Both the position numbers and the translations under genes were made by a program. A model generated the notes under the pieces. The model did no database searches and had not been told where the DNA came from. It was given only the letters and a program-made list of their open reading frames with translations. Below, piece after piece: positions 11,110-53,481 of a stretch of 57,479 nt of DNA (position 1 is its first letter; the number at the start of each line of letters is the position of its first letter). Source of the DNA: a virus; IMG/VR virus record IMGVR_UViG_3300017917_001904, positions 1-57,479 of that record; one strand, given 5' to 3'.

Positions 11110-11115
11110 GGCAAC

Positions 11116-16806: not shown

Positions 16807-16808
16807 AT

Positions 16809-25570: not shown

Positions 25571-26371
25571 ATGAAAATTAAATTGGCATTAGTGGGAATT
25601 GGAGCAGTACTGGTACTGTTAGCATCGGGTTGTACTCGAATCGAAACCGGCGAAGTTGGCGTTCGCATTGGATTCGATAAACAAATTCAACAAGGAGAAC
25701 TGCTACCGGGTAGCTTTAACCAAACACTAATTGGTGATGTGCTTACATTCCCGATTAAGGACGTTAATGTTACTATCAATGACATGACTCCGCTAGCCAA
25801 AGACAATAGCACAATGAAAGATTTTGATGCTGTTATTATCTATAACATTAACCAAGGACAAGTTAGTGAGCTGTATAGCCAAAAGAGTAAAGCCTTCCAT
25901 GCCGAAAACAGAGGCGACACTTATTTGATGTATAACTACATTGTTCAAACTGCTCGTAATGCAGTATATAAGGCCGCTCGTGAATACGAAGCATTGGACA
26001 TGAATGATAATCGTGCCGCAATTGAACAAAAGGTCCGTGAAACAATTCAGCGTACCCTAGCCGATGAAAAACTAGATGGTGCTATTACTATCAACCAGGT
26101 CCTGGTTCGTAATATTGTACCAGCCGATAGTGTAGTTGAGTCTGCTAATGCATTGGTTCGTGCTAAAAACGAATTTAAGCAGAAAGAAGTTGAAGTTAAA
26201 ACTGCCGAAGCTGAAGCTCGTCGTATGCAGGCGTTGAGTAATCAATCGTCAAGTTCTATTGCTTACATGAACGCACAGGCTGCACTTAATATCTCAGAAG
26301 GTATTAAGAACGGTAAGGTCCAAACTATTATTGTTCCTAGCAATATGACTGGTTTGATGATTAACAAGTAA
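25571..26371 (+). CDS. SPFH/Band 7 (prohibitin-like) lipoprotein
   Basis: The protein is 266 aa. Residues 1-21 form a lipoprotein signal ending LLASGC, so Cys is probably lipidated. The SPFH core follows (RIETGEVGVRIGFDKQIQQG near residue 23, then TINDMTPLAKDNSTMKDFDA, then a Y-N-x-N domain). A coiled-coil Ala-Glu-Lys stretch (KQKEVEVKTAEAEARRMQAL, near residue 205) lies near the end. SPFH proteins form membrane rings that regulate proteases such as FtsH. A phage copy could protect an inner-membrane phage complex or affect superinfection. AAAGGAAAC precedes the ATG, and a terminator follows 45 bases after the stop. Confidence 0.87.
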   Translation: MKIKLALVGIGAVLVLLASGCTRIETGEVGVRIGFDKQIQQGELLPGSFNQTLIGDVLTFPIKDVNVTINDMTPLAKDNSTMKDFDAVIIYNINQGQVSELYSQKSKAFHAENRGDTYLMYNYIVQTARNAVYKAAREYEALDMNDNRAAIEQKVRETIQRTLADEKLDGAITINQVLVRNIVPADSVVESANALVRAKNEFKQKEVEVKTAEAEARRMQALSNQSSSSIAYMNAQAALNISEGIKNGKVQTIIVPSNMTGLMINK

Positions 26372-40221: not shown

Positions 40222-40222
40222 T

Positions 40223-41320
40223 ATGATAATTCAAGGTACTACGATCTACGGCGGCACTATTTACGATACATTGGGATTGTATGATTTTTCTACTTTTACT
40301 TTCACTGCCGGTAATGTAGTAGGACCAACTGGTGCTAATATTACACAGTTGTTTGCTAACAGTTACAGCGTGAGCAATGCTAGCAATGTTTGGTTAACCA
40401 ATACCAGCTACTTTGGTATGAGCAAGCAAGGTTATCAATATTGGATTGTTCCACAGACTGCACAATATACTATCGAAGTAGCTGGGTCAAGATCTGGTAT
40501 ACCAACATATACTGCTAATACGCAGGCCAATGTAAGATACGGTCGTGGTGCAGTTGTTCGTGCTACATTCACGCTACAACAAGGAACCAATGTTACCATT
40601 GCCGTAGGTCAGCCTAGTGCCAATACTACGCAGCCAAGCACGTTCTCGAGTCCGGGCGGCGGCGGCGGAACATTTGTGGTGCTGCCAGGCAACTTCCCTC
40701 TGATAGTAGCAGGTGGTGGCGGAGCTGCTGGTAATTGGAGTAGCAATACCACAATACTGTTTGGCGGTAATGGTCAAACAACCACATTTGGTGGTAACAG
40801 CTTCAACGGTGCTCCCGGCGGCTTTAATGGCTGGGGTGGTAATAGTCATGTTAACTTAAATGGTGTTGTAAGTGTTAACGGGTACGATAGTGGCGGTGGC
40901 GGCGGATTCATACTGCCTGGAGTGCAAGGCTTAGGTGGCAATGTAAGACCCGGATCAATAACTACAAACAATTATGGCCAAGGCGGTTGGCATTTCTTAG
41001 CCAACTTGGTCGGGGGTGCAACGTCAACTACATATCCAACGCCTTCAACTAGTGCTGGCGGATTTGGCGGTGGCGGTGGTCCAGGTCCTATTACAGGTGG
41101 TGGTGGTGGCGGATATAGTGGTGGTGGTGGTGCCTACTCAAATAGCTCTACAGCGATTGACGCTGCTGGCGGCGGCGGATCGTGGATCGCCGCTAATGCT
41201 ACAGCGGTAGCAACCAGCGACGGCCAGTACGAAAGATCTTCAACATTCGGCGGAGCGAGCATAACTAATTTAGCCACTGTAAATGCAGGGCCAGGTTATG
41301 TACGGATTACAAAAATATGA
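40223..41320 (+). CDS. Glycine-rich tail adhesin
   Basis: In this 365-aa protein, the N-terminal part (MIIQGTTIYGGTIYDTLGLY) is beta-rich. The central part has YTIEVAGSRSG, then FTLQQGTNVTIAVGQ. From about residue 145 it is dominated by poly-glycine runs (GGGGGTFVVLPG, GGGGGFILPG, GGGGGYSGGGGAY). The alternation recalls the glycine-rich domain of ALK-type receptors and the polyglycine sandwich of T-even gp38 adhesins, where loops between Gly helices bind the receptor. It follows the giant fibre with one base between the two and is probably the distal, host-range-determining tip. Confidence 0.8.
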   Translation: MIIQGTTIYGGTIYDTLGLYDFSTFTFTAGNVVGPTGANITQLFANSYSVSNASNVWLTNTSYFGMSKQGYQYWIVPQTAQYTIEVAGSRSGIPTYTANTQANVRYGRGAVVRATFTLQQGTNVTIAVGQPSANTTQPSTFSSPGGGGGTFVVLPGNFPLIVAGGGGAAGNWSSNTTILFGGNGQTTTFGGNSFNGAPGGFNGWGGNSHVNLNGVVSVNGYDSGGGGGFILPGVQGLGGNVRPGSITTNNYGQGGWHFLANLVGGATSTTYPTPSTSAGGFGGGGGPGPITGGGGGGYSGGGGAYSNSSTAIDAAGGGGSWIAANATAVATSDGQYERSSTFGGASITNLATVNAGPGYVRITKI

Positions 41321-41364
41321 TTATAGGCAGCGGAATTACTATTACATTTGTTAGTAGTGTTTAA
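41317..41364 (+). CDS. 15-codon frame, possible remnant of a fibre gene
   Basis: ATG overlaps the adhesin stop (ATGA) and encodes MIIGSGITITFVSSV. Its start resembles that of the adhesin (MIIQGTTI). It may be the stub of an adhesin-type gene lost by recombination, or chance. No independent support. Confidence 0.25.
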   Translation: MIIGSGITITFVSSV

Positions 41365-41377
41365 ACATAAGTAAGTT

Positions 41378-42082
41378 ATGCTTACAATTATCTCGGCGTT
41401 AGTACTGACGCACATTACTATTGCCTGCGTTACTCTTTATCTACATCGCAGTCAAGCTCACAGAGCCGTAGAATTTCATCCTGTGGTATCGCATTTTATG
41501 CGTTTTTGGTTATGGCTCACTACTGGAATGGTTACTCGACAATGGGTAGCCATACATCGCAAGCATCACAGGTTCTGCGAGCAGCCGGACGATCCGCACA
41601 GCCCAAGACAAGTAGGCCTGTGGAGAGTGGTATTTGGAGGAGCATTGTTATATCATGAGGCGAGCAAAGATAAAGAAATGGTTCATGCTTACGGTGTTGG
41701 CACTCCTGATGATTGGATCGAGCGCCAGTTATACACTCCTCACAGCAGACTTGGCATTAGCATTTGCCTTTTGCTCAACCTCGTCATCTTTGGTTGGGTG
41801 GGTGCCATAATATGGTTAGTTCAAATGTTATGGATTCCATTCTGGGCAGCAGGTGTCATTAACGGTATAGGGCATTGGTGGGGATATCGTAATGGCGACA
41901 GTAGAGATACAAGTACAAACATCTCGCCCTGGGGTATCATTATCGGCGGAGAAGAATTGCATAACAACCATCATCTTAATCCCGCAAGCCCACGATTAAG
42001 CCGACGTTGGTTTGAATTTGATATTGGCTGGTTTTATATCAGAGTATTACAATCATTACGTTTGGCAACTGTTAAAATTTAG
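41378..42082 (+). CDS. Fatty-acid (acyl-lipid/acyl-CoA) desaturase
   Basis: This 234-aa membrane di-iron enzyme has all three histidine boxes: HRSQAH (residues 23-28), HRKHH (60-64) and HNNHH near 197. Two pairs of hydrophobic segments surround them. The family introduces a cis double bond, usually Delta-9, into acyl chains, raising membrane fluidity. It is shorter than bacterial Delta-9 desaturases (about 300 aa) but complete in motifs. Phage desaturases are known from marine T4-like phages. It lies between fibre genes and replication genes with no visible promoter of its own. Confidence 0.92.
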   Translation: MLTIISALVLTHITIACVTLYLHRSQAHRAVEFHPVVSHFMRFWLWLTTGMVTRQWVAIHRKHHRFCEQPDDPHSPRQVGLWRVVFGGALLYHEASKDKEMVHAYGVGTPDDWIERQLYTPHSRLGISICLLLNLVIFGWVGAIIWLVQMLWIPFWAAGVINGIGHWWGYRNGDSRDTSTNISPWGIIIGGEELHNNHHLNPASPRLSRRWFEFDIGWFYIRVLQSLRLATVKI

Positions 42083-42090
42083 TTTATAAT
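42062..42090 (+). promoter_or_regulatory. Sigma-70 early promoter of primase, leaderless spacing
   Basis: TTGGCA (42062-42067), a 17-bp spacer and TATAAT (42085-42090), then AACAGG to ATG 42097. The -35 lies in the end of the desaturase gene. Confidence 0.7.
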
Positions 42091-42096
42091 AACAGG

Positions 42097-43125
42097 ATGT
42101 TAGATTCTATCCAGCAAAGTGTATTGCAATTGTTGCCTGCCCGCAAAAAAACGGGTCAGAATGGCTGGATATCTTTTAATGCACCTTGCTGCCCACATAA
42201 CGGAGAAACCGCTGATACTAGAGGCCGTGGCGGCATAAAAACAAATAATGGACAAATTTCCTATCATTGTTTTAACTGTGGTTTTACTACTAGTTTTATT
42301 CCGGGTCGGCATTTAAGTTTTAAATTTAGAAAACTACTTGCTTGGTTAGGTGCCGACGATTTAACTGTTCGTCGATTAGTAATTGACGCAGTTAGATTAA
42401 AAGAATTAGTTGCACCTGAAGAATTAGTTAAAGAACCTGAACAAGAGATTGTTTATGAAAAACGTGAGCTACCCGAAGGTGCAGTAAGCTTTAGTGAGTG
42501 GCGAACTTATCTTGCAATGCAAGGCGATGAATATGTAGTTCCGGATCGTGTTAGTCTAGCAGTTGAGTATGTTAATAACAGAAAAATTGATTTAAAAAAA
42601 TATGAAGTTTTCTTGACTGATAATGAAGCATACAATTTACATCGCAGAATAATTATACCCTATTACTATAAAAATGAAATTGTTGGATATACAGCTCGCA
42701 CCTGGGAAGCAGATGTAAAACCCAAATATTGGTCTAGCCATCCGGCAGACTTTGTGTTTAATTTAGATCAGCAGACATCCAATAAGAAGTTTGTTATTGT
42801 GTGCGAAGGACCTTTTGATGCTATGAGTATAGATGGTGTAGCAGTCAGTGGGTCAGAAATATCAGATACACAAATTGAACAAATTGATAGACTACAACGA
42901 GAAGTTATAGTTGTACCTGATAGTGATCGCGCTGGTCGTAAATTAATTGATCGTGCCATTGAAGCAGGTTGGACTGTAAGTTTTCCTATATGGATGGAAA
43001 CTTGCAAAGACATTAATGAAGCCGTGGTTAAGTACGGAAAATTATTTGTTCTTAAAGATATACTTGCATCTAAGGAAACAAGTCGTTTAAAAATTGAATT
43101 AAAAAAGAAGAAACTATATAGTTAA
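42097..43125 (+). CDS. gp61: DNA primase, T4 gp61 type
   Basis: The 342-aa protein has an N-terminal zinc-binding domain (APCCPHNG near residue 26 and YHCFNCGF near residue 51). A TOPRIM domain follows, with FVIVCEGPFDAMSI near residue 228 (catalytic Glu) and VIVVPDSDRAGRKL near residue 267 (the D-x-D pair). It synthesises RNA primers for lagging-strand replication and works with the gp41 helicase encoded next, separated by one base. The length agrees with T4 gp61 (342 aa). An early promoter directly before the ATG makes the message leaderless. Confidence 0.93.
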   Translation: MLDSIQQSVLQLLPARKKTGQNGWISFNAPCCPHNGETADTRGRGGIKTNNGQISYHCFNCGFTTSFIPGRHLSFKFRKLLAWLGADDLTVRRLVIDAVRLKELVAPEELVKEPEQEIVYEKRELPEGAVSFSEWRTYLAMQGDEYVVPDRVSLAVEYVNNRKIDLKKYEVFLTDNEAYNLHRRIIIPYYYKNEIVGYTARTWEADVKPKYWSSHPADFVFNLDQQTSNKKFVIVCEGPFDAMSIDGVAVSGSEISDTQIEQIDRLQREVIVVPDSDRAGRKLIDRAIEAGWTVSFPIWMETCKDINEAVVKYGKLFVLKDILASKETSRLKIELKKKKLYS

Positions 43126-43126
43126 T

Positions 43127-44575
43127 ATGACAAAAGATTATAACCCAGACATACAAAAACTATTTTTAGAAATGATGCTGCAAGACGCAGAAACTTACGT
43201 GCGTGTGCAAAACATTTACAATGCAGAAAACTTCGATCGCAGTTTGCGTGAAGCAGCACGGTTTATTAAAACACACAGTGATGATTATAAAACACTACCA
43301 ACTCGGGAACAAATACAAGCAGCTACCGGCGTAGAGTTACGCGAAGTTCCAGAACTTAAAGAAGGACACTATGATTGGTTCTTACAAGAATTTGAAAGCT
43401 TTAGTAGAAAACAAGAACTAGAAAGAGCTATTCTAAAAGCCGCAGACATGATCGAAAAAGGTGATTTTGATCCTGTGGAAAAATTAATTAAAGACGCTGT
43501 ACAAATTAGCCTAACAAAAGACCTAGGCATGAACTTCTGGGAAGATCCAGAAGGCATGATTACTCGATACTTTGACAGTGGTGGTCAAGTAAGTACCGGA
43601 TGGCCTCAAATGGATAAACTGCTATATGGTGGGTTTAGTCGCGGCGAATTAAACATTTTTGCTGGTGGCTCGGGTTCGGGTAAATCCCTTGTTATGATGA
43701 ACATTGCACTCAACTGGGTGCAGCAAGGATTAAACGGAGTTTATATTACCTTGGAACTTAGTCAAGAACTAACTGGATTACGTACCACTGCGATGCTTGC
43801 TAATATGAGCACAAAAGATATACGTAAAGATAAAGAGACAGCCGCACTTAAAGTCAAGATGGTAGGCAAAAAGTCGGGTAGTTATCAAGTAAAGGCATTA
43901 CCGGCGCAAAGTAATATCAACGACATTCGTTCATTCTTAAAAGAATATCAAATCCAAACTGGACGTAAAATTGACTTTATGATGATTGATTACTTGGATT
44001 TGTTAATGCCAGTAAGTGCAAAAGTTAGTCCTAATGACTTGTTTGTTAAAGACAAATATGTGTCGGAAGAATTGCGTAACTTAGCAAAAGAATTACAAAT
44101 ATTAATGGTAACAGCGTCACAGCTAAACCGTAGTGCAGTAGAAGAAGTAGAGTTTGATCATAGCCATATTTCCGGCGGTATTAGTAAAATTAACACAGCA
44201 GATAATGTGTTTGGTATCTTTACAAGTAGAGCTATGCGAGAGCGCGGCCGATATCAAATACAATGTATGAAAAGTCGTAGTTCTACAGGTGTAGGACAAA
44301 AGATTGATCTAGAATATAACATCGAAACTATGCGTATTACTGATCCGGGCGAAGATGCTGCTGCTGCGGGGACCATTGGATATGGTCGGCCCGGAGGACC
44401 TAGTGCCCCAGACAGTATAATGAATCAAATTAAAACAACTAGTACAACAAGCGGCCCGCAAATGATTGCAGCAAAACCTAAGCCAGGATTTAATATTGAA
44501 AATAAAGTCCAAGCTAACGTTGATAGTACCAAACTCAAAAGTATGCTAGCAAGCCTTAAAACAAAAACCGAATAA
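43127..44575 (+). CDS. gp41: Replicative DNA helicase, T4 gp41/DnaB type
   Basis: The protein is 482 aa, with an N-terminal helical domain (about residues 1-150) followed by the RecA-like motor. GGSGSGKSL (Walker A, near residues 180-188), VYITLELSQELTG (motif 1a/2 region), DFMMIDYLDLLMP (Walker B) and LMVTASQLNRSA (motif H3) are all present. It forms a hexamer that unwinds duplex DNA ahead of the phage polymerase and partners with gp61 primase. The C-terminal 60 residues are Ser/Thr/Gly-rich and probably flexible. A late promoter overlaps its stop codon. Confidence 0.95.
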   Translation: MTKDYNPDIQKLFLEMMLQDAETYVRVQNIYNAENFDRSLREAARFIKTHSDDYKTLPTREQIQAATGVELREVPELKEGHYDWFLQEFESFSRKQELERAILKAADMIEKGDFDPVEKLIKDAVQISLTKDLGMNFWEDPEGMITRYFDSGGQVSTGWPQMDKLLYGGFSRGELNIFAGGSGSGKSLVMMNIALNWVQQGLNGVYITLELSQELTGLRTTAMLANMSTKDIRKDKETAALKVKMVGKKSGSYQVKALPAQSNINDIRSFLKEYQIQTGRKIDFMMIDYLDLLMPVSAKVSPNDLFVKDKYVSEELRNLAKELQILMVTASQLNRSAVEEVEFDHSHISGGISKINTADNVFGIFTSRAMRERGRYQIQCMKSRSSTGVGQKIDLEYNIETMRITDPGEDAAAAGTIGYGRPGGPSAPDSIMNQIKTTSTTSGPQMIAAKPKPGFNIENKVQANVDSTKLKSMLASLKTKTE

Positions 44576-44578
44576 ATA
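44572..44578 (+). promoter_or_regulatory. Late promoter
   Basis: ATAAATA overlaps the gp41 stop. Predicted start near 44584, then a GGAG ribosome site before TTG 44598. It appears to open the run of late genes at 44.6-47.4 kb. Confidence 0.7.
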
Positions 44579-44597
44579 TCTAATAACGGAGTAGATT

Positions 44598-44846
44598 TTG
44601 CAAAAGCGTACCCGCAGTATTCTTGATGAACTTGCCCACTTACCCGTCACTAAAGACAGGGAAAACTTAGTGGAAAGTCGTGCTAGCCATGTTATTCAAG
44701 GTGCTATTAATTTGATTAATTATATCAAAGAAAACTACGATGCTGAACAAGCAGCAGAGCTAGAGCGCAGATTGCTTAACAGCATTAGGGCACAAGACCC
44801 AGCTAAGTTTGCTCGCGGGGTTAGGAGATTTAAGCGTGAAGATTAA
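44598..44846 (+). CDS. Conserved small T4-like-phage protein, unknown
   Basis: The 82-aa helical protein begins at TTG 44598, with CGGAG seven bases upstream. The sequence RTRSILDELAHL, then VESRASHVIQGAINLINYIK, then LERRLLNSIRAQDPAKFARG matches a small protein I remember as widespread in marine T4-like phages. It is rich in Arg and Glu with three helices. ILDE near residue 11 would also fit a prohead-protease site. It sits first in the late operon. Confidence 0.72.
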   Translation: MQKRTRSILDELAHLPVTKDRENLVESRASHVIQGAINLINYIKENYDAEQAAELERRLLNSIRAQDPAKFARGVRRFKRED

Positions 44847-45558
44847 AGACATTATCAACGAAGCATTTGGCACCCAAGGAGTTAGAGATCCATATAGTTA
44901 CGATTACGAAAAAGATCCAGAAACAGGTGAATATACAGGAAGATCAGAAACAAACCCTAGATCCTTTACAAATATGATCGCTGGCGTAGCTGATAGATTA
45001 AGTGCAGGATCGGGTAGTCAATGGGTTAGTGCCCCGGATGCTGATAAAAAAGATACGGCAATTGACCGATATAAAGTTCCTCCGTATAAAATGCTTGTAG
45101 TTACAGCAAGGAATGGTAAAAAATTCTTTAAGCTTCCAGCAAAAGATAACGCAACAGACCAATCAGGATATTGGGTAAATGAAGAGAATACTCAAATATT
45201 TGATCCTCAAGCACTGCGTATATTAGAACAATTAGCTAGAAAGAATGGACAATTAGTAGTCAATCCAGCAGATCTAAAAGCCGCACAACAAGCCGCAGAC
45301 GACTATTCTGCACAACAAGCCGCACAACAAGCAGAGCCGGGAGCAGAGAAACCCGAGGACGAGCTATATGGAGAACCATCAGTAACTGAACCATTGCACC
45401 CTGACGTGTCAATCGTACAATCTGTTCCGTTAGTTATTCAATACAAAGGTAAAAGATTTGAAATGGATGATTATGGTGAATTTCATCCATTTGGTACCAC
45501 CAGAAAAGTTACTCCGGCATTACAAACTTTCTTAACTAAAGAAAGGGGTAAGCTATAA
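44836..45558 (+). CDS. Late protein with capsid-targeting-like N-terminus, unknown
   Basis: I place the start at GTG 44836, eight bases after AGGAG, rather than at TTG 44809. The product, about 240 aa, starts MKIKDIINEAFG, where Ile-Asn-Glu followed by Ala is a very good T4 prohead-protease site. The body has an acidic, Ala/Gln-rich central linker (KAAQQAADDYSAQQAAQQAE) and a C-terminal beta segment (VPLVIQYKGKRFEMDDYGEF). No enzymatic motif is seen. It overlaps the previous gene by 11 bases and the next by one. I infer a head-internal protein. Confidence 0.7.
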   Translation: MKIKDIINEAFGTQGVRDPYSYDYEKDPETGEYTGRSETNPRSFTNMIAGVADRLSAGSGSQWVSAPDADKKDTAIDRYKVPPYKMLVVTARNGKKFFKLPAKDNATDQSGYWVNEENTQIFDPQALRILEQLARKNGQLVVNPADLKAAQQAADDYSAQQAAQQAEPGAEKPEDELYGEPSVTEPLHPDVSIVQSVPLVIQYKGKRFEMDDYGEFHPFGTTRKVTPALQTFLTKERGKL

Positions 45559-46301
45559 TGCAATTAAATGAAGGCGGGCACGTATTTAAAGGCCCAGACG
45601 GGCAACCATTGACGCAGCGTATTAACAGAGAAGATATTCCTGCTACTATTAAATGGATAGAACATGTCTCGGGCATTAGATTCCCAGAGGAGACTTGGTT
45701 AGGTACCACAGGTAAAAAGATTAGTTCTGGTGACTTAGATCTAGCGGTTGATGAAACAGCAATAGATAAAGATACATTAGTAGCAGTATTACTATCGGCT
45801 GGCATTGATGCTAAAGACATTAAAAAATCAGGTGATAGTGTTCATATTAAAGCACCAATAACCGGCAGATTGGGACAGGGATATGTGCAAGCAGATCTTA
45901 TGTTTGGCGATCCTAAATGGCAAGCATTTAGTATGAGTGGTGGTGCTGAGGGCAGTAAATTAACCGGAATGAGTCGGCATGTTATACTAGCCAGCATAGT
46001 TAGCGCATTACACCCGGGACTCAAATGGAGTTACAAACACGGATTAGTTGATCGTGTCACTAACAAAACAGTCGATGATGGCAAGAGCCCTGCTAAACTA
46101 AGTCAGGTAACAGGTATTCCTGTTGCTAAATTAAATTCTGCAGATGACATTATTGACGCAGTTAGCAAACGTCCTAATTATGATCAGCTAGTAGCAGCAG
46201 CTAGAGAAACATTAGCAAAAAGCGATATACAACTACCCGAAGCAGCTCCTACACCCGGAACAGCGGCTTGGTTTAGAACATACACGGATAAATTATCATA
46301 A
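45558..46301 (+). CDS. Nucleotidyltransferase-fold protein, possible head-packaged enzyme
   Basis: The 247-aa protein starts MQLNEGG, and Leu-Asn-Glu|Gly again fits a prohead-protease site. WLGTTGKKISSGDLDLAVDE near residue 52 has the G-[ST]-x(n)-D-x-D pattern of the polymerase-beta/MNT nucleotidyltransferase fold. The later GQGYVQADLMFGDP supplies a third acidic residue. Such enzymes transfer NMP to proteins, RNA or small molecules. It overlaps both neighbours by one base and lies next to a ligase-fold protein. If packaged in the head it could be injected with the DNA and modify host targets, as T4 Alt does by ADP-ribosylation. Confidence 0.75.
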   Translation: MQLNEGGHVFKGPDGQPLTQRINREDIPATIKWIEHVSGIRFPEETWLGTTGKKISSGDLDLAVDETAIDKDTLVAVLLSAGIDAKDIKKSGDSVHIKAPITGRLGQGYVQADLMFGDPKWQAFSMSGGAEGSKLTGMSRHVILASIVSALHPGLKWSYKHGLVDRVTNKTVDDGKSPAKLSQVTGIPVAKLNSADDIIDAVSKRPNYDQLVAAARETLAKSDIQLPEAAPTPGTAAWFRTYTDKLS

Positions 46302-47413
46302 TGCATTTTGAATTTGTTGAATACTTAATGGAAGCGGCTAATCCTAGAACTCCGCACCCCGAAGATGCTATTTTATCTGGAAGTCAAGCTGCCGCCACCC
46401 AAATATCCGGTCTAAAAGCAGTTATCGCTAATCCAGCAAACCTTACTATTAAGTGGGACGGAAAACCTGCACTTATATTTGGTAGAGACAAAGACGGCCA
46501 ATTGGCGGTCATGGACAAATATATGTTTGATGCTGGGTTCTTGGCTAAGAGTGTAGAAGATTGGAAACGTTACGATGCTAATAAAGCATCAGGTAATTTA
46601 CGTGGCGACCTTTACAACACATTAGAAGTAATTTGGCCCGGTCTAAATGCAGCAACACAAGGCGAAGGATTTTATTGGGGCGATTTGCTATACGCAGGTC
46701 AGTTACAGCCACAGCAAGGAAAATATGTATTCCGTCCTAATTTAGTTGAATACCGAATACCAGTTAATAGTAAGCTTGGTAAGCAAATTGCAAATACTTC
46801 GGGCGGGATTGTAGTACATCAATATTTTAATCAAATTGGTGGGCAACCCGTTCAATGGAACGGTAAAGGTCTAGCTAATGTTCCTAATGGAGTAGCTATT
46901 ATAACACCAACTGCTGGAAACAAATTTACATTAAAGACGCCAGTACAGCAAGAACGAGCAGCAGATGCAGCATTAAAGAAATACGGCGCAGCAGTTGATG
47001 AACTATTAGCAGCTATTCCTCAAAGTACTAGAGACAGAATTAAAACATACTTTAATAAATTTATTACTAGACAGACTACAGAACCATTGCACACTTGGCT
47101 TGCAGCAAATGTTAGTAAAGTGCAATATAATGCTTTAGCCGGTGACGATTATACTGGTAAGCTATTTGCACAAACTCCCGGCGGAGAAATAGTCGAAAGT
47201 CCTGCTTACGAAGGGCTTAAAGCAATATGGAATAGCATTTTTGCATTTAAACAAAATTTAGCTAAACAATTAGCTCCTCAAGTGCAGGGTATAGAAGAAT
47301 ACATTGACGGACAGCCAGCAGGGGAAGGATTTATATTTCCAACCCCAAGCGGACTAGTTAAAATTGTAGATAGAGAAGTGTTTAGTGCTGCTAATTTCGC
47401 GAAAATGAACTGA
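46301..47413 (+). CDS. Ligase-fold (KxDG) nucleotidyltransferase-like protein, possible head-packaged enzyme
   Basis: The 370-aa protein starts MHFEFVEYLMEA, where Leu-Met-Glu|Ala fits the prohead-protease consensus. LTIKWDGKPALIFGRD near residue 47 has the K-x-D-G motif I of ATP-dependent ligases and capping enzymes, in which Lys takes the nucleotide. FYWGDLLYAGQLQ and LVEYRIPVNSKLGKQIANTS follow. KFTLKTPVQQ may mark the late Lys motif. I recall related phage proteins grouped as DUF6267. The partner gene upstream is an MNT-type nucleotidyltransferase. A role in modifying or ligating nucleic acid or protein early in infection is a hypothesis. Confidence 0.75.
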   Translation: MHFEFVEYLMEAANPRTPHPEDAILSGSQAAATQISGLKAVIANPANLTIKWDGKPALIFGRDKDGQLAVMDKYMFDAGFLAKSVEDWKRYDANKASGNLRGDLYNTLEVIWPGLNAATQGEGFYWGDLLYAGQLQPQQGKYVFRPNLVEYRIPVNSKLGKQIANTSGGIVVHQYFNQIGGQPVQWNGKGLANVPNGVAIITPTAGNKFTLKTPVQQERAADAALKKYGAAVDELLAAIPQSTRDRIKTYFNKFITRQTTEPLHTWLAANVSKVQYNALAGDDYTGKLFAQTPGGEIVESPAYEGLKAIWNSIFAFKQNLAKQLAPQVQGIEEYIDGQPAGEGFIFPTPSGLVKIVDREVFSAANFAKMN

Positions 47414-47417
47414 TTGG

Positions 47418-47425
47418 TATAAATA
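47418..47425 (+). promoter_or_regulatory. Late promoter with conserved leader, copy 1
   Basis: TATAAATA is followed by a predicted start at 47431, which is exactly where a 47-base sequence shared with 47965-48011 begins. The leader has a TGCG/CGCA hairpin (47432-47445), a mini frame ATG-CGG-TAA at 47431-47439 and AAGGAG. Confidence 0.85.
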
Positions 47426-47465
47426 TTAGCATGCGGTAACACGCAAATAATTAAGGAGAAACAAA

Positions 47466-47897
47466 ATGGCAATCGGAGTAACTAAAGTAAACGGCGATAC
47501 CGCTGGTGTAATCAACGTTGATGCAGGTCGTAGTTTTGCTAACGCTAGTGTTATTAACACTGGTATCGCAAGCCCAATTCAGGCTTTTAACATTCAAGTT
47601 GTTGCTGGTAACCTAGCAGCTGAACTAAGCCGTGGTACTGATGGTACTGCAGGCGCAGTAGAAACACTACTAAACCACATTTCAACAAATGCATCTATTA
47701 TTGCATACCAAGTTGATAGTGGCGCAACAGCAGCTAACACACAGTTAAGCGTTATTGTTGAGCGTAGTTCATGGACTGCACTATCACTACAACAGTCGAT
47801 TCGTGCAAGCCTAGCATCTAACATTGGTTCTAAGACTCCTGTTACTACAACTACACTAGATGTACGTAACGTTGGTATCAAGTTAGCAGCTAGCTAA
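47466..47897 (+). CDS. Abundant-type late virion protein, paralogue A
   Basis: The 143-aa protein starts MAIGVTKVNGDTAGVINVDA and is rich in Ala, Thr, Ser and Val with almost no Lys in the core. ASIIAYQVDSG near residue 77 and ALSLQQSIRASLASN near residue 103 align with corresponding parts of the next gene, so the two are paralogues. A perfect late promoter, a stem-loop-protected leader with AAGGAG and a strong terminator form a single-gene unit built for high output. A capsid decoration or tail protein is likely. No family name is known to me. Confidence 0.75.
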   Translation: MAIGVTKVNGDTAGVINVDAGRSFANASVINTGIASPIQAFNIQVVAGNLAAELSRGTDGTAGAVETLLNHISTNASIIAYQVDSGATAANTQLSVIVERSSWTALSLQQSIRASLASNIGSKTPVTTTTLDVRNVGIKLAAS

Positions 47898-47915
47898 TTG
47901 AACAAATTTGTTCTG

Positions 47916-47943
47916 AAAAAGCAGACTCCGGTCTGCTTTTTTT
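47916..47943 (+). terminator. Rho-independent terminator
   Basis: AAAAAGCAGAC pairs with GTCTGCTTTTT. The preceding GAACAAATTTGTTC (47900-47913) is a perfect 14-base palindrome of unknown use. Confidence 0.92.
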
Positions 47944-47952
47944 ATGGCTAAC

Positions 47953-47959
47953 ATAAATA
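47953..47959 (+). promoter_or_regulatory. Late promoter with conserved leader, copy 2
   Basis: ATAAATA with predicted start at 47965. The following 47 bases repeat the leader of copy 1 with two differences, including the ATG-CGG-TAA mini frame, the hairpin and the AGGAG site. Confidence 0.82.
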
Positions 47960-47964
47960 TATAC

Positions 47965-48011
47965 ATGCGGTAACACGCAAATAATTTAGGAGAAACAAAA
48001 TGGCAATTGGA
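47965..48011 (+). repeat. Second copy of the 47-base late leader
   Basis: It matches 47431-47477 except at two bases and runs from the predicted transcription start into the first codons (MAIG). The two copies and the paralogous genes downstream show a duplication of the whole unit. Confidence 0.88.
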
Positions 48012-48380
48012 ATTTCACGTAGCGCAGGCTATAACTATGGTGGTTCAACTGGACTATTAAACGGTGTAGCATCAACCAGTACCCGCAATTCAGAAGTAGG
48101 TCAAAGTATTGCATTATACGTAGTAGATGCAGGTTTAGATCTAAGCGGAGAAGATGATGCAGCGAACGAAGCTTTTGAAGCAATTCTTCAAACAATGCCT
48201 GCAGTACTAGCATACTATGCACATGCTACTTCGGGTGTAATCAGCTTTATCTGCGATGGTGTTAATGCACCTTCAGCAGCAAGCCTACAAACAGCTATCC
48301 AAGCAATTGGAACTAAGAAAGGTTCTGTTAACTTAGGTAGCACAACCGTTACTGATGGTACCAGCTTTGTAGTATCGTAA
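48000..48380 (+). CDS. Abundant-type late virion protein, paralogue B
   Basis: The 126-aa protein starts MAIGISRSAGYNYGGSTGLL. The parts VGQSIALYVVDAGLDLS, MPAVLAYYAHATSG and AASLQTAIQAIGTKKG, then a final TTVTDGTSFVVS, align with the first paralogue, although overall identity is low. It is acidic and lacks Trp. It has the same promoter, leader and terminator type as its neighbour. I infer a small virion surface or tail protein made in large amount. Confidence 0.75.
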   Translation: MAIGISRSAGYNYGGSTGLLNGVASTSTRNSEVGQSIALYVVDAGLDLSGEDDAANEAFEAILQTMPAVLAYYAHATSGVISFICDGVNAPSAASLQTAIQAIGTKKGSVNLGSTTVTDGTSFVVS

Positions 48381-48396
48381 TTTTTAAAATTACATC

Positions 48397-48424
48397 AAAA
48401 AGCAGACTTAGGTCTGCTTTTTTT
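48397..48424 (+). terminator. Rho-independent terminator
   Basis: AAAAAGCAGAC pairs with GTCTGCTTTTT around TTAG. It uses the same stem as the terminator at 47916, so the whole transcription unit was duplicated. Confidence 0.92.
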
Positions 48425-48430
48425 GTGGCT

Positions 48431-48437
48431 ATAAATA
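48431..48437 (+). promoter_or_regulatory. Late promoter, exact leaderless spacing
   Basis: ATAAATA followed by five bases and then ATG 48443, which is exactly the predicted +1. This is the clearest leaderless late start in the window. Confidence 0.8.
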
Positions 48438-48442
48438 CCTAT

Positions 48443-48871
48443 ATGAAATTCTATACTTGTATTACATTAGTTGATATTACACCTACAGGAGTAATACGAC
48501 ACACAACTGAAAACGAAATAGAAAGAAATCAACAGCGGAATTGGGAAACCGTATTACAGTGTATTGGACTTAGAGCACAACCTCAATTAATTGATGGGCC
48601 TGTTATTAAAGACATTGAAATAGATGACGATAGTATCTTTGGAGAAATGTTTTATGGTACAAAACAACGAATATGGCTGTTTTCGTTTGGTGTAGAACCC
48701 GAAGACGTATTTTTATTAGATGGCGATCCTGTGGGACAATTAGATAAAGATTTTTCGCAGGTTCCTATAATCTGTGGGTTAGAAGAAACAGCTAGATTTA
48801 TACTACCGATATTTTATCCTTACGGCGCAATCAAAAACATATACTTTATGGATGGCCGGTTCAATTTATAA
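48443..48871 (+). CDS. Conserved T4-like-phage late protein, probable virion component
   Basis: I place the start at ATG 48443 (MKFYTCITLVDITPTGVIRH), not at GTG 48425, because the late promoter lies between them. The 142-aa product has RNWETVLQCIGLRAQPQLID near residue 33. Near the end are QVPIICGLEETARFILPIFY and PYGAIKNIYFMDGRF. I recall a protein of this kind in the structural region of marine T4-like phages. Function is not known; a virion or assembly protein is probable from the promoter. Confidence 0.75.
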   Translation: MKFYTCITLVDITPTGVIRHTTENEIERNQQRNWETVLQCIGLRAQPQLIDGPVIKDIEIDDDSIFGEMFYGTKQRIWLFSFGVEPEDVFLLDGDPVGQLDKDFSQVPIICGLEETARFILPIFYPYGAIKNIYFMDGRFNL

Positions 48872-48874
48872 ATA
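48867..48874 (+). promoter_or_regulatory. Late promoter
   Basis: TATAAATA overlaps the end of the previous gene (TAA at 48869-48871). Predicted start near 48880. It serves the small genes from 48909 or 48968 onward. Confidence 0.75.
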
Positions 48875-48908
48875 CTACGATTCACCGGCACTTTTTAAGG
48901 CATCTCTC

Positions 48909-49049
48909 ATGGCACATTTAGGCAATTACACAGAACCCTATTTTTCTCTAGAAAGAACAGAAAGAAAATGGCAGAGAGCGAAAGAACTAACCTTGAAGCG
49001 CACGTTGATTTATGTGCTGAAAGGTATCGTACGTTGGAAAAGAAACTAG
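48909..49049 (+). CDS. Possible small basic protein, 46 aa
   Basis: ATG 48909 has a modest AAGG upstream and lies just after a perfect late promoter. The frame encodes MAHLGNYTEPYFSLERTERK and a basic tail (RTLIYVLKGIVRWKRN). It overlaps the better-supported coiled-coil gene at 48968 by 82 bases in another frame, which lowers my trust. A longer form from ATG 48852 is excluded because that ATG lies upstream of the promoter. Confidence 0.4.
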   Translation: MAHLGNYTEPYFSLERTERKWQRAKELTLKRTLIYVLKGIVRWKRN

Positions 49050-49234
49050 ATAGTCTCGAAGAGCGTATGGACAAACTTGAAGAGCACATTATTGTTATAC
49101 GCACTAAATTATCAGAAGCCAGTGGTGGTGGCGAAAATGCTGCTAACAAGACGATCATTACGATAGGAACCGCCTTTGGCGTAGCCCTATTGACTGGCTT
49201 AATTACAACTATTGTTCACTTTGTAATGAAATAA
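48968..49234 (+). CDS. Coiled-coil membrane protein (XhlA/holin-like architecture)
   Basis: In this 88-aa protein, residues 1-50 form a coiled coil (RYRTLEKKLDSLEERMDKLE). A Gly-rich hinge (EASGGGENA) and one membrane segment (IITIGTAFGVALLTGLITTI, residues about 63-83) follow. This build is that of XhlA-type and other small phage membrane proteins near lysis or tail genes, where the coiled coil lies in the cytoplasm. It is probably driven by the late promoter at 48867. It could be a holin accessory or a membrane anchor for assembly; no lysin is nearby. Confidence 0.7.
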   Translation: MAESERTNLEAHVDLCAERYRTLEKKLDSLEERMDKLEEHIIVIRTKLSEASGGGENAANKTIITIGTAFGVALLTGLITTIVHFVMK

Positions 49235-49236
49235 AA

Positions 49237-49443
49237 ATGAAAATAGTAGAACTCGTAAATAAAATTAGATTACCAATTACTAACGAAGAAGCAGATGTGT
49301 TAGGGCAATTTGAAGAAAATACTAAAATAGCTAAAGAAGACTTAACCCCTCGACAAACCGTAATTGTAAATCAGCTTGTTAATAAAGATATTTTATTTAG
49401 AAAAAACGAAGATGGAAAAATCTACTACAAAAAGAAAATTTGA
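49237..49443 (+). CDS. Small conserved T4-like-phage protein
   Basis: The 68-aa protein MKIVELVNKIRLPITNEEAD ... LTPRQTVIVNQLVNKDILFR ... GKIYYKKKI has the look of a winged-helix or tri-helical domain, with a final beta hairpin carrying the double-Tyr end. I recall similar small proteins in marine T4-like phages beside structural genes. It starts two bases after the previous stop. The C-terminal coding region overlaps the start of the next gene by 32 bases. Confidence 0.68.
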   Translation: MKIVELVNKIRLPITNEEADVLGQFEENTKIAKEDLTPRQTVIVNQLVNKDILFRKNEDGKIYYKKKI

Positions 49444-49927
49444 TTTTCAGGACGCACAAGACGCATTTGTAAATTTTGGCATACAATACATAAAGCATTG
49501 GACAGATAAACAGTTAAAAACATATATCACAAAACCCGTAGTCATTCCGATTGGTGATTACGGGTTTTTAGTTGGCCCGTATGTTATAACTGGTAAATCC
49601 AAACATTGTTGGAGCACTAAACAACAAGATGGTAGATTTATCCATGATTTTGTTTCAAAAACTAATGCTATAATTTACTGTATAAGAGCAATGAAAAACA
49701 AGGCAGATGCTAACGATATATTAGAATTAGATAGGCAACTAGGAAAATTAGACAACGATATTGTGTTTTATCAAAATACGCTAAATTGTTCCAAAAATCA
49801 GTTTAAAAATGAAATAACCTTAAATAGATATATAGACGCTAAATTGCAACGCCGTAATGTTTTGAATATTTTGAAAAAAACTTTAATTTCGGCTAAATAC
49901 GTAAACTTTGGGAAACAACCACTATGA
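49412..49927 (+). CDS. Conserved T4-like-phage protein, unknown
   Basis: I place the start at ATG 49412 (MEKSTTKRKFDFQDAQDAFV); the frame stays open to 49376 but that lies deeper inside the previous gene. The roughly 171-aa product has VVIPIGDYGFLVGPYVITGK near residue 42 and a long helical end with ILELDRQLGKLDNDI. ILKKTLISAKYV lies near the C-terminus. It is basic. It occurs in a block of late, probably head-related genes. No function can be assigned. Confidence 0.65.
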   Translation: MEKSTTKRKFDFQDAQDAFVNFGIQYIKHWTDKQLKTYITKPVVIPIGDYGFLVGPYVITGKSKHCWSTKQQDGRFIHDFVSKTNAIIYCIRAMKNKADANDILELDRQLGKLDNDIVFYQNTLNCSKNQFKNEITLNRYIDAKLQRRNVLNILKKTLISAKYVNFGKQPL

Positions 49928-50613
49928 GATTAACTGAAATGGGCGTAAAGCCAACTAGCAAAAAAATTAATAAAGTTATGGAAAGCCGCTTTGGGGTCAA
50001 GATTGATTATGACAATTTAGACTTTAAAAAGGCTTATGTTTTGGCCCGTGGCCTAACAGAAAATCTTGATAAAATTAAACACAGCCATGGTGTGCATGTA
50101 GCTGAAAAGAATCCTAAGTACATGGAATTACTAATGGTGCGCGAAGGCTTACATCGCTGGATGGTTGAAAACAAACAGCAACTAATCCTAGAAAGCGAAA
50201 TGGGCAAGAGCCAAGCTATTCTAGCTGCTAAGGATATGGTTGATAGCATCCAAGACATGCTAGAAGAAGTTAGCAAAATGCAGAACGAACAAATGCCTGC
50301 ATTACTAGATACTATCCGTGACCAAATTGGTATGGAACAAGCTGATGCATTTAAAGCAGCAGTTGAGCCTTTATTACAAGACATGTCACAACAATTAAGT
50401 ACCGCTAGAGGCACAGCAGACAATGCAGCTCGTGCGTTAGCTGGCGAGCAAGTTGCACAACCAATGGGTATGGGAATGGGTGCAGCACCCGCTCCTGGTG
50501 GTATGCCTGGTGAGATGCCACCTGCTGATATGGGTAGCGATCTTGATACAGACGAATTTGCTGCAACTGATGCAGCCGCTGGACCTAATGTAATTGGTAG
50601 AGAGAAGCGTTAA
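49924..50613 (+). CDS. Helical head-core-like protein, probable virion or scaffold component
   Basis: The 229-aa protein begins MRLTEMG, where Leu-Thr-Glu is a possible prohead-protease site. Most of it is alpha-helical (DMVDSIQDMLEEVSKMQNEQ; LLQDMSQQLSTARGTADNAA). The C-terminus is flexible and rich in Met, Pro, Gly and Asp (MGMGMGAAPAPGGMPGEMPP), then GREKR. Helical, acidic, low-complexity-tailed proteins of this kind are typical of T4-like prohead cores (gp22, gp67, gp68 class). I recall similar proteins from marine T4-like phages. It overlaps neighbours on both sides, indicating a tight late operon. Confidence 0.7.
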   Translation: MRLTEMGVKPTSKKINKVMESRFGVKIDYDNLDFKKAYVLARGLTENLDKIKHSHGVHVAEKNPKYMELLMVREGLHRWMVENKQQLILESEMGKSQAILAAKDMVDSIQDMLEEVSKMQNEQMPALLDTIRDQIGMEQADAFKAAVEPLLQDMSQQLSTARGTADNAARALAGEQVAQPMGMGMGAAPAPGGMPGEMPPADMGSDLDTDEFAATDAAAGPNVIGREKR

Positions 50614-51023
50614 TGCGTATTCGAGAAGTTATTACCGAAGATATTCTCGACGAGATTCTTGAAGATGAAGCATTAGATCCTGCAATTATGGATCTAATGG
50701 GGATTCTTGAGACTATGAGAAATCGTGCTCACGACACACACGCGGTTCCCCGAGTTAGAGCTGATGCGTTGATTAATTTAGTTCAAAAAGACCATCCTCA
50801 ATTTAACTTAGACACGTTAGAAAAAGCATTATCAAATAACGAAACTTTAAAAGAACTAATTAAAGACATTAAAGATGATGCCACTGGTGTAAAGTATATC
50901 TATCTTGCACCGTTTGCCGATGACGACGAAACAGCAGCTATTGGGGATATGAATGCCCCAAGAACTCCTCCAGAGCGTACTGTTGATTCGATGGCAAAAT
51001 CTGCTCTTGCAAAACGGTCTTAA
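50613..51023 (+). CDS. Acidic late protein with protease-site-like N-terminus
   Basis: The 136-aa, strongly acidic protein begins MRIREVITEDILDEILEDEA, with Ile-Thr-Glu and Leu-Asp-Glu as possible cleavage sites. A helical middle (RADALINLVQKDHPQFNLDT) and a Pro/Arg-containing end (APRTPPERTVDSMAK) follow. It shares one base with the preceding gene. No motif indicates an enzyme. An internal head or scaffold-associated protein is the simplest reading. The iscU promoter -35 lies in its last codons. Confidence 0.65.
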   Translation: MRIREVITEDILDEILEDEALDPAIMDLMGILETMRNRAHDTHAVPRVRADALINLVQKDHPQFNLDTLEKALSNNETLKELIKDIKDDATGVKYIYLAPFADDDETAAIGDMNAPRTPPERTVDSMAKSALAKRS

Positions 51024-51054: not shown

Positions 51055-51435
51055 ATGGCTTACTCAGGTCAAGTCTTGGATCACTATGAAAATCCAAGAA
51101 ACGTTGGTAAATTAGATAAGAATGATCCTACTGTGGGTACAGGATTAGTCGGAGCACCTGCATGCGGCGATGTATTACAACTGCAAATAAAGGTAGAGGA
51201 CAATGTCATTACCGATGCAAAATTTAAAACATATGGATGTGGTTCGGCGATTGCAAGCTCGTCGCTTGTTTCGGAATGGGTTAAGGGAAAAACTCTTGAA
51301 GAAGCAGGTGAAATTAAGAACACGCAGATTGCGGAAGAGCTCGCACTACCTCCAGTTAAAATACACTGTTCAATTTTAGCAGAAGATGCTATTAAGGCTG
51401 CATTAGCAGATTACAAAAATAAACAAAATGCTTAA
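51055..51435 (+). CDS. iscU: IscU Fe-S cluster scaffold
   Basis: The 126-aa protein aligns over its whole length with proteobacterial IscU. It has GAPACGD with C37 and D39, TYGCGSAIASSSLVSEWVKG with C62, LPPVK (the HscA recognition site) and IHCSILAEDAIKAAL with C105. All ligands for assembling a 2Fe-2S or 4Fe-4S cluster are present. Host IscS, HscA and HscB are required. The match to bacterial IscU is closer than for most genes here, suggesting recent acquisition. It begins an operon with a radical SAM gene and iscA, each overlapping the next. Confidence 0.96.
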   Translation: MAYSGQVLDHYENPRNVGKLDKNDPTVGTGLVGAPACGDVLQLQIKVEDNVITDAKFKTYGCGSAIASSSLVSEWVKGKTLEEAGEIKNTQIAEELALPPVKIHCSILAEDAIKAALADYKNKQNA

Positions 51436-53158
51436 AGTCCTGTTCTATCATGCCAATGATTTTCAAGAAGGTAGCAGTCATAATCTTTTATTTTTAGGTG
51501 TTGCGGCATTATATTTGAAAACATGGTTAGAGCAACACCGTCCAGACACAGCTAGTAAAATTAACTGGTGTGTTCCGCAACAACAAAAACTTACTGATTC
51601 TGAACTAATTGATTTACTAGAAAAAGAAAAACCAGATCTATTTTGTAGTAGTCATTACATATGGAATCATAGTTTTATGCGTGATCAATTAAATAGAATC
51701 AAAAATAAGGTATCAAAGGATATAGTGTTTGTTGCTGGTGGCCCTAGCATTGACGTTAATATTGATTCTGATTTTTTTAATAAGAATTCCTTTGCAGATT
51801 ACGCTATATTCGGAGCAGGCGAAGTTGCATTTGCCGACGTTGCTGATAGTTTGCTAACTAATAAAAAATTAATCGCATTTAATACTTCTAATATAGCTTG
51901 GGTTGATAAACAAAAAAATAAAACTGTTCTAGCTGATTTTAAATATGTTCCTCAATTATCAAGAAGTCCTTATACTAGTAACGAAGATCTATTTTCTAAA
52001 ATGGTAAAAAAGGAACAAGATAAGGGGATTACGGTTGTAATTCCGTATGATCTAACCAGGGGATGTCCATATAGCTGTACTTTTTGCGATTGGAACAGCG
52101 GTCTGACTAATAAAACCACTAGACGAAAAAATAGTTATAAAGATGAAATTGATTTATTTCAAAAATTAAATATTAAAGGAATTTACCTGTCAGACGCCAA
52201 TGTAGGACAATATCAAGAAGACATTGACATGATTGAATATATGGGAAACAAAAACATATATGAAAATGCTGGATTTAAAATAGATGGCAACTTTAGTAAG
52301 TTACGAAAAGAGAATAATTTAAAGATTTATCATTTATTAGCAAAAGGAAATTTAATTACTGATTATGCTGGATTCACAATATCGGTTCAAGATATAAACA
52401 AAACAGTATTAGACAATATTGATAGACCAGATGTCGGTTGGGATGTACATTTGTCGATGATTAAAGAATTAAAACAAAGTTATCCTAAGATTAGTTCAAA
52501 AGTACAGTTAATACAAGGCTTACCCGGACAAACAGTTGAATCATGGAGAGAAACTCTTAGAGAAATTAGTAAAAATGATTTAATGCTACAAATTTTTATA
52601 AGTGAGCTTTTACCGGCTAGCCCTGCGGCAAGAGATAAAAACTATCAAGAAAAATTTAAATTTACCTATACTACAAGTACAAGATTTAACGGAGAAGAAT
52701 ATTTTCAAGCTACCTTTCCAGAATCGTGCGTAAGCTTTACAAAAAAAGATTTTGTTAAGATGACAGTTCTTTCGCACATTTATGCAACGCTAACACAATT
52801 TAGACAACAATCAATAGCTTTCTTTGACTTAGAAAAAGTAGTCGATGACATCTTAGTGTCACCAATTGGCAAAGCTATGGAAACAAATTTATACAACAAT
52901 TGGGTCAATCATAATAAATTTTATTTTACAATTGGTATTAATGGACAAGAAATGTCGGAAAATGATAAACCCATTAGTGCTTGTTTTATTTTTAATTCCT
53001 CTTTGCTTTGGGAGCGTAGCCTTAAAATTTTAACTTTAATTGCTAAAAATCTTACTCCAGGTGTTATGACCCCAGGGGAGTTTATTAAAAACAGTATCAC
53101 GTACGGTAAATTACCGGGTGTGAAAATTATCAAAGATTTAAAAGGATTTGTCCAATGA
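51428..53158 (+). CDS. B12-binding-type radical SAM protein
   Basis: The 576-aa protein has an N-terminal Rossmann-like region (about residues 1-150, with DLFCSSHYIWN and IVFVAGGPSIDV) that resembles cobalamin-binding domains but lacks the D-x-H-x-x-G motif, so base-off B12 ligation is not shown. The radical SAM core has GCPYSCTFCDWNSG with C213, C217 and C220. IYLSDANVGQYQEDIDMIEY and VQLIQGLPGQTVESW follow, as in class B radical SAM methyltransferases. The substrate is unknown. It lies between iscU and iscA with overlaps on both sides, suggesting those genes mature its 4Fe-4S cluster. Confidence 0.85.
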   Translation: MLKVLFYHANDFQEGSSHNLLFLGVAALYLKTWLEQHRPDTASKINWCVPQQQKLTDSELIDLLEKEKPDLFCSSHYIWNHSFMRDQLNRIKNKVSKDIVFVAGGPSIDVNIDSDFFNKNSFADYAIFGAGEVAFADVADSLLTNKKLIAFNTSNIAWVDKQKNKTVLADFKYVPQLSRSPYTSNEDLFSKMVKKEQDKGITVVIPYDLTRGCPYSCTFCDWNSGLTNKTTRRKNSYKDEIDLFQKLNIKGIYLSDANVGQYQEDIDMIEYMGNKNIYENAGFKIDGNFSKLRKENNLKIYHLLAKGNLITDYAGFTISVQDINKTVLDNIDRPDVGWDVHLSMIKELKQSYPKISSKVQLIQGLPGQTVESWRETLREISKNDLMLQIFISELLPASPAARDKNYQEKFKFTYTTSTRFNGEEYFQATFPESCVSFTKKDFVKMTVLSHIYATLTQFRQQSIAFFDLEKVVDDILVSPIGKAMETNLYNNWVNHNKFYFTIGINGQEMSENDKPISACFIFNSSLLWERSLKILTLIAKNLTPGVMTPGEFIKNSITYGKLPGVKIIKDLKGFVQ

Positions 53159-53481
53159 TATCTTTAACAGAAATTGCAGCACGTAAAGTACAACAGCATC
53201 TAACTAAACGTGGTCGTGGAGTTGGTATTATGATCGGTGTTCGTACTACCGGTTGTTCGGGACTTGCTTATAAATTAGAGTACGTCGATCACCCGCCTGT
53301 AACCAGAGACTGGATGAGTTATACCAGTAACGGTATTAAAATTTATGTAAATGGTAAAGATTTGCCTTATGTTAATGGACTTACAATGGATTATAAGCGC
53401 CAGGGTCTTAACGAAGGTTTCGAATTTATTAACCCAAATGAACGTGACCGTTGCGGTTGCGGCGAAAGTTTTCGAGTTTAA
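53155..53481 (+). CDS. iscA: IscA-type Fe-S carrier
   Basis: The 108-aa A-type carrier has VRTTGCSGLAYKLEY with C34 and a C-terminal DRCGCGESF with C100 and C102, the three conserved ligands. The central GIKIYVNGKDLPYVNGLTMD matches the family. It would pass Fe-S clusters from IscU to target enzymes. It overlaps the radical SAM gene by four bases and so is co-translated with it. IscA-like proteins alone are seen in other phages; the combination with IscU and an embedded radical SAM enzyme is less usual. Confidence 0.95.
   Translation: MISLTEIAARKVQQHLTKRGRGVGIMIGVRTTGCSGLAYKLEYVDHPPVTRDWMSYTSNGIKIYVNGKDLPYVNGLTMDYKRQGLNEGFEFINPNERDRCGCGESFRV

Follow-up and report, generated by a model that had tools for sequence, protein, structure and literature searches.

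Do neighbouring genes of an uncultured phage encode proteins that enter its head by means of a short, cleavable N-terminal tag? The question is raised by a 57,479-nt stretch of DNA (IMG/VR record IMGVR_UViG_3300017917_001904, here the stretch), a fragment of an uncultured relative of the T4 superfamily; it gave no match to known phages at the nucleotide level. An earlier note on this DNA had pointed to genes between 44836 and 51023, and to a distant gene at 1145, whose products begin with a few residues ending in (L/I)-x-E, and had read them as one battery of head-packaged, possibly injected effectors. Genes are named below by their start positions; gene 1145 and the genes of the block discussed here lie on the plus strand. 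Overall, the best explanation is that they include head cargo bearing capsid-targeting sequences (CTS) and cut by the prohead protease, among it a nucleotidyltransferase/ligase-like pair, and we consider this reading likely.

N-terminal segments ending in (L/I)xE

CTS-tagged internal proteins are already known in T4. The proteins studied here resemble T4 IPI, IPII, IPIII and Alt (PMC9026906, PMC3012670) in that unrelated proteins bear a short N-terminal propeptide with (L/I)xE at its end, that hydrophobic residues occupy the same register and that there is a gp21-type protease, here encoded by the relative G001. They differ in that they show no sequence similarity to the internal proteins or Alt and carry other tag sequences, and their processing is a prediction.

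When the sequence was re-read, all six listed N-termini were present at their starts. Four are CTS-like and follow the T4 register (the slash marks the predicted cut): VKIKDIINE/A in 44836 (44836-44862), MHFEFVEYLME/A in 46301 (46301-46333), MRIREVITE/D in 50613 (50613-50639) and MRDLINIILNE/V in 1145 (1145-1177). Gene 45558 has the short extension MQLNE/G with a predicted cleavage site (45558-45572), and 49924 has MRLTE/M, a weak candidate site (49924-49938). An open reading frame (ORF) finder had placed the start of 44836 at an upstream TTG; the gene has a GTG start behind a good ribosome-binding site, TTAGGAG. A stop a few codons upstream leaves this GTG as the sole possible start in several relatives, and therefore the start given in the earlier note stands. 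The label "late" fared less well: TATAAATA is not over-represented in the stretch (4 copies against 9.5 expected, three of them at 47418-48874), and late promoters were dropped as support.

Scoring the simple motif, (L/I)xE by residue 12, over all genes of the stretch showed the set to be enriched, with 7 of 12 genes in the block against 6 of 62 elsewhere (Fisher p=5e-4). Since about 10% of the other genes also carry it, including 5701, 3936 and the Fe-S protein 53155, the simple motif was rejected as evidence for single genes. A stricter pattern was derived from T4 CTS genetics. In the IPIII segment of T4, targeting is sensitive to residues 4 and 7, and processing to residues 8 and 10 (PMC9026906). 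The pattern requires a hydrophobic residue at E-6 and E-3, L/I at E-2, and the E at residue 7-12; it was set after the N-termini had been seen, so that its p-values are indicative. It matches 4 of the 74 genes of the stretch, namely 1145, 44836, 46301 and 50613, all of them on the earlier list; the mean for shuffled N-termini is 0.85 (p=0.0098), and internal stretches of protein match at 0.85% per window. Genes 45558 and 49924 do not fit it fully, their segments being too short. Matches numbered 4/55 within the stretch of T4 tested, 8/216 in S-CREM2 (p=0.0006), 6/171 in the near relative G001 (p=0.004) and 1/75 in T5, which is chance level.

Conservation of the segment ends

The (L/I)xE end was kept in all distinct relatives of 50613 (44/44) and 1145 (7/7). 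The earlier note had held that an equal frequency in unrelated genes such as gp41 would speak against it; among distinct N-termini of control neighbours the motif occurred in 2/56 for the gp41-like helicase, 0/69 for 48425 and 0/37 for the IscU-like gene. For 49924 it was found in 31 of 35 distinct relatives, some having D instead of E. Eight distinct relatives of 44836 have ends of the VKI(K/R)xx(I/V/L)xE type, with L/I/V-x-E kept in all and strictly L/I in 4/8. The heads of stand-alone 46301 homologues, counted without "N-termini" that were linkers of fused ORFs, finish in (L/I)xE in 39 of 40 distinct cases, the next residue being mostly A, and vary in length and sequence (MKFEFVEFLME, MILDFINMLTE, MKLDFLDYIFE, MRLDFINQILVE).

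All 23 aligned relatives of 45558 keep E5, and the preceding two or three residues are variable; the heads of this family mostly have 4-7 residues, with P3 being L/I/V in 37/37. The homologues in Atu_ph07 and Phosso lack the extension and start M-GG where the stretch protein has MQLNE/GG, and that of Phosso has no upstream start whatever. Therefore, the 45558 extension ends exactly at the predicted cut. Moreover, pLDDT in the AF2 models is <50 over exactly residues 1-5 in 45558 and over residues 1-15 in 46301, segments predicted to be disordered, the remainder of each protein being well folded.

The 45558 and 46301 families were found in 68 distinct loci, adjacent in 49, fused in 16 and apart in 3. 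Among 24 fused ORFs, all 15 distinct linkers hold (L/I)xE between the domains, at the place where stand-alone 46301 has its predicted cut (e.g., NQGYHIIIE/DEAPAKKKDPRIPHPED); these fused relatives are not independent of each other, and the linker is otherwise variable. One carrier of a fused ORF, G004, encodes gp21 and gp23.

Alternatively, the (L/I)xE starts might arise by chance or belong to normally folded N-termini, and the proteins might function inside the infected cell or at another place in the particle. The frequency of the simple motif in unrelated genes fits this, as do 49237, 44598 and 53155, conserved look-alikes that are probably uncut. The pattern found here is register-specific, however, and variable tags always end in (L/I/V)xE. 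Junction sites in the fusions, homologues free of a tag, disordered tags and the association of the motif with S-CREM2 virion proteins (below) also argue against chance, which we hold to be decidedly unlikely.

Prohead protease and site usage in related phages

The closest long relative, G001 (137 kb, 85-90% identity in these proteins), encodes an S77/gp21-type prohead protease and gp23. Its scaffold contains 20 (L/I)xE sites against 8.2 expected and its protease 9 against 2.3; in T4 the corresponding numbers are 16 against 5.8 for gp22 and 7 against 2.6 for gp21. Because the G001 scaffold and protease show a site excess like that of T4 gp22 and gp21, this independent computed calibration indirectly suggests that the G001 lineage uses the same (L/I)xE code as T4.

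G001 has further CTS-like starts on proteins with unassigned functions (MKSFRDYLTE, MNMRDLIDLFE, MKSLHDYIAE, MKIKEIVLE and MNLRKYINLFE); the genes with such starts lie at 90754-91782, 91784-94141, 98674-99297, 107705-108079 and 19405-19854, and cleavage sites are likewise in excess in the 342-aa and 785-aa proteins among them. Other starts recur in G004 and Atu_ph07: four proteins begin MRAREFITE or MKAREFITE, and about a dozen tandem genes have a start of the MRWHQLTE type. In Atu_ph07 (record positions 39484-50592 and 304780-305556), the roughly dozen genes, mostly in tandem and coding for 250-270 aa, start MRWHQLTE, MKWEQLTE or similar; sharing a tag variant of their own, they make up a large tagged family.

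Virion proteomes of other phages

The published virion list of the T4-like cyanophage S-CREM2 (PMC10665884, Table 3) was compared with the proteins of this phage undetected in the virion. The authors of that study do not discuss N-termini or targeting. The simple motif occurs in 9/17 non-tail virion proteins against 15/164 undetected proteins (p=3.5e-5), and the strict pattern in 5/17 against 3/164 (p=1.9e-4); hypothetical proteins were classed as tail-associated by gene position, which was our choice, and without that class the results are weaker in the same direction. With tail proteins kept in, p was 0.011 for the simple motif and 0.021 for the strict pattern. Three virion enzymes of S-CREM2 start MKDFDSFLEE (SAM hydrolase), MKRFDAFLTE (kinase) and MKNFSSFLTE (cytidylyltransferase), and the cytidylyltransferases detected in virions of S-SM1 (PMC3037559) and S-SZBM1 (PMC9146016) start MKKFSAFLNE/A and MRFRQFIIE/A. 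These proteins of T4-like cyanophages resemble the set studied here as particle enzymes with T4-like CTS starts; they are different enzymes from the pair in the stretch, and their hosts are cyanobacterial. The published S-CREM2 virion enzymes with T4-like CTS starts are gp6, gp13, gp14 and gp154, and variants are seen in gp12 and gp136; in gp12, which is Cas9-like, RFASFMAE/A lies close to the annotated start, which may be misplaced.

The gene order primase, helicase, 44598-family recurs in the jumbo phages PA5oct and CBB, where the genes that follow are virion proteins by mass spectrometry or annotation. The PA5oct virion proteins gp253 and gp247, both detected by ESI-MS/MS, are homologous to 45558 (E 3e-7; profile 1.5e-16) and 49924 (E 1e-8; profile 3.5e-22), respectively, and CBB gp298 is also homologous to 49924. 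Homologues of 45558 and 49924 thus have independent support as virion proteins, from published mass spectrometry and from the PA5oct and CBB annotations. PA5oct gp250 (ESI-MS/MS) is similar to 48425 (E 1.9e-5), and gp258, likewise detected by mass spectrometry, sits at the syntenic place of 44836 without detectable homology to it. Ejection proteins of phiKZ and SPN3US (PMC5694885, PMC7411985) offer a further parallel, with many head proteins that have N-terminal propeptides cut after E; they belong to another lineage, and their propeptides are of another type.

Several observations weigh against head cargo cut by a prohead protease. No virion of the stretch phage exists, and gp21 is absent from the genes of the 57-kb fragment. 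The strict pattern in its exact register shows no excess in P-SSM4, G004 or Atu_ph07, and genome-wide N-terminal enrichment is modest (1.4-2.3 fold; T5 1.0). IPIII needs ten residues, more than MQLNE or MRLTE provides. PA5oct gp253 is in virions with no obvious N-terminal (L/I)xE; therefore, packaging need not use such a tag. The DUF6267 proteins S-CREM2 gp87 and S-SZBM1 141 have no tag and are absent from both virion lists, which fits the tag rule yet shows that packaging of this enzyme is not obligatory. Authors of the virion studies also warn that some enzymes may be contaminants. Finally, the ligase-like reading of 46301 is drawn from motifs and from weak fold scores.

The nucleotidyltransferase/ligase-like pair

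The earlier note had counted two enzymes in the set, and predicted folds and motifs make 45558 and 46301 the fitting candidates. Gene 45558 (45558-46301, 247 aa) has a predicted PolX/Pol-beta-type nucleotidyltransferase fold, with Foldseek matches to Pol lambda/mu (E 1.8e-4, prob 1.00). The active-site motif SGDLD (S57-D61) lies at 45726-45740 and the third acidic residue, D113, at 45894-45896; S57, G58, D59, D61 and D113 are invariant in 25 sequences. Fold and G(S/T)...DxD...D active site together place it in the Pol-beta/PolX superfamily. Gene 46301 (46301-47413, 370 aa) matches the DUF6267 family (Pfam PF19782, E 3.6e-31, 109.3 bits, cut-off 27). Its KWDG, with a motif-I-like lysine, lies at 46451-46462, and K51xD53G54, E342G343 and K354 are invariant in 28 sequences. 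KxDG, EG and K motifs are typical of ATP-dependent ligases. The fold matches of 46301 to RNA and DNA ligases are weak (PDB E 0.17 or worse), and PDB sequence searches with 45558 and 46301 found no relative. A DUF6267-like fold is joined in one protein of S-PM2 (BFVD A0A0M6VVW4) to a cytidylyltransferase-like domain, an enzyme type detected in cyanophage virions.

A Pol-beta-type nucleotidyltransferase beside a ligase-like protein resembles the RlaP/ligase pairing. The RlaP model PF10127, however, matches neither 45558 nor its homologues, Atu_ph07 and CBB have a separate RlaP elsewhere, and head tags are not described for RlaP; membership of 45558 in the RlaP family was rejected on account of the unmatched model.

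What would such a pair act on? It may be head cargo that repairs incoming phage DNA by gap filling and nick or end sealing, since, among solved structures, DNA polymerases lambda and mu come closest to the fold of 45558, and the PDB matches of 46301 include DNA ligases. Against this, the viral fold neighbours of 46301 that have names are RNA ligases (Atu_ph07, E 3.5e-4), Atu_ph07 and Phosso have an RNA-ligase-like gene beside their 45558 homologue, and RNA repair by a paired Pol-beta enzyme and RNA ligase has been described as a theme in jumbo phages (PMC7824862). We consider DNA rather unlikely as the substrate, and RNA cut by host defences would be the more likely one.

Gene 50613 and the prohead core

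Gene 50613 (50613-51023, 136 aa) contains six (L/I)xE sites against 2.0 expected, the highest excess among 61 proteins of the stretch. Because of this excess we read it as a probable prohead-core-like substrate, more like a core protein that is cut in several places than an effector. It resembles the T4 core proteins gp22, gp67 and gp68 in being crowded with cleavage sites and is unlike them in lying away from head genes; no homology to any of the three was found.

All the proteins of the set might then be prohead core or scaffold components in the manner of these T4 proteins, cut up and mostly leaving the head, with none delivered as an enzyme. The site excess of 50613 fits this, and so do the families of 49924 and 44598, whose members are small helical or structural proteins with virion structural annotations. 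It is hard to extend this to 45558 and 46301, in whose enzyme folds the active-site residues are invariant and whose internal (L/I)xE sites are not in excess, as for cargo rather than scaffold, and for the whole set we find it unlikely.

On the reading as tagged head cargo, the earlier proposal survives in part. Head targeting and prohead-protease cleavage are well supported for 44836, 46301, 50613 and 1145, and plausible for 45558. The idea of one battery of effectors lumps unlike things: 49924 has only MRLTE, with D in some relatives, the tag of 45558 is short, and 50613 is more like a core protein.

Other genes of the block and of the stretch

The remaining tagged proteins are 44836 (44836-45558, 240 aa), a predicted head cargo protein of no known family, with no match in PHROG, Pfam or phage searches, and 1145 (1145-2614, 489 aa, with a basic tail), which belongs to PHROG 3560, of unknown function. 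Gene 49924 (49924-50613, 229 aa) belongs to a virion protein family (PHROG 14154, virion structural protein). Absent from the earlier list was 44598 (44598-44846), which starts MQKRTRSILDE and belongs to a virion-associated family (PHROG 11854, virion structural protein); its homologues in PA5oct and CBB are annotated virion structural proteins, and it is probably not cleaved. Gene 48425 (48425-48871), the homologue of PA5oct gp250, has no CTS-like start, and 49237 (49237-49443), with its MKIVE start and conserved fold, is probably a look-alike in which the E is replaced in remote homologues. Both 49237 and 44598 were rejected as tagged proteins, their (L/I)xE starts being conserved but probably part of folded N-termini, with the E lost in remote homologues. 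The MISLTE start of 53155, an Fe-S biosynthesis protein, was set aside as a false positive.

Elsewhere in the stretch, a NifU/IscU-like gene (51055-51435), a radical-SAM gene with a B12-binding-like region (51428-53158) and a HesB-like Fe-S biosynthesis gene (53155-53481) lie side by side. A periplasmic-type phosphate/solute-binding protein and a TctA transporter gene occupy 9919-12414. Many sugar-nucleotide genes, including epimerases and a cytidylyltransferase fused to a mannose-6-phosphate isomerase-type domain, are found at 360-1127, 4748-9844 and 15053-22083 and suggest surface glycan or DNA-sugar synthesis. An SPFH/Band 7 protein and a fatty-acid desaturase gene are at 25571-26371 and 41378-42082.

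Proposed route and significance

From the N-termini, their conservation, the protease and site usage in G001 and the fusions with a junction site, all of which were observed, and from published virion mass spectrometry of homologues and predicted folds, we infer packaging, cleavage and delivery in the stretch phage, together with a repair role. A block of apparently virion-associated proteins adjoins the primase-helicase genes, and at least 44836, 46301, 50613 and the distant 1145 begin with a capsid-targeting-type segment of 9-11 residues, with a shorter one on 45558. The segment would bind the forming prohead core, a gp21-type protease would cut after the E of (L/I)-x-E during maturation, and the freed proteins would remain in the head as DNA is packaged; 50613 would probably be cut at several places as a core protein. 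Part of the cargo may then leave with the DNA at infection, where 45558 and 46301 would act as a pair, most likely refilling and resealing nucleic acid. Tentatively, and somewhat short of an even chance, we propose a pre-loaded repair kit in which enzymes of the 45558 and 46301 types are shipped in the head by cleavable tags and delivered at infection, and which in relatives is one polyprotein split by the prohead protease at an internal (L/I)xE.

What appears to be new is the cargo of the stretch, the apparent spread of the tag to cyanophage virion enzymes and to this uncultured clade, and a fused form that holds an internal site; no paper linking capsid targeting to these proteins was found in the open literature searched, and one may exist elsewhere. 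Head cargo has been worked out for very few tailed phages, and doing so has usually needed the virus in culture. It would become predictable in uncultured phages if sequence sufficed to recognise CTS-type starts throughout the T4 superfamily. If true, this would also give an entry route for virion enzymes so far unexplained in published proteomes, such as the cytidylyltransferase, SAM hydrolase and kinase of cyanophages. In its fused form the pair would be a phage polyprotein that the prohead protease processes, and the cargo of the stretch suggests that some phages carry a nucleic-acid repair pair that is ready before any phage gene is expressed.

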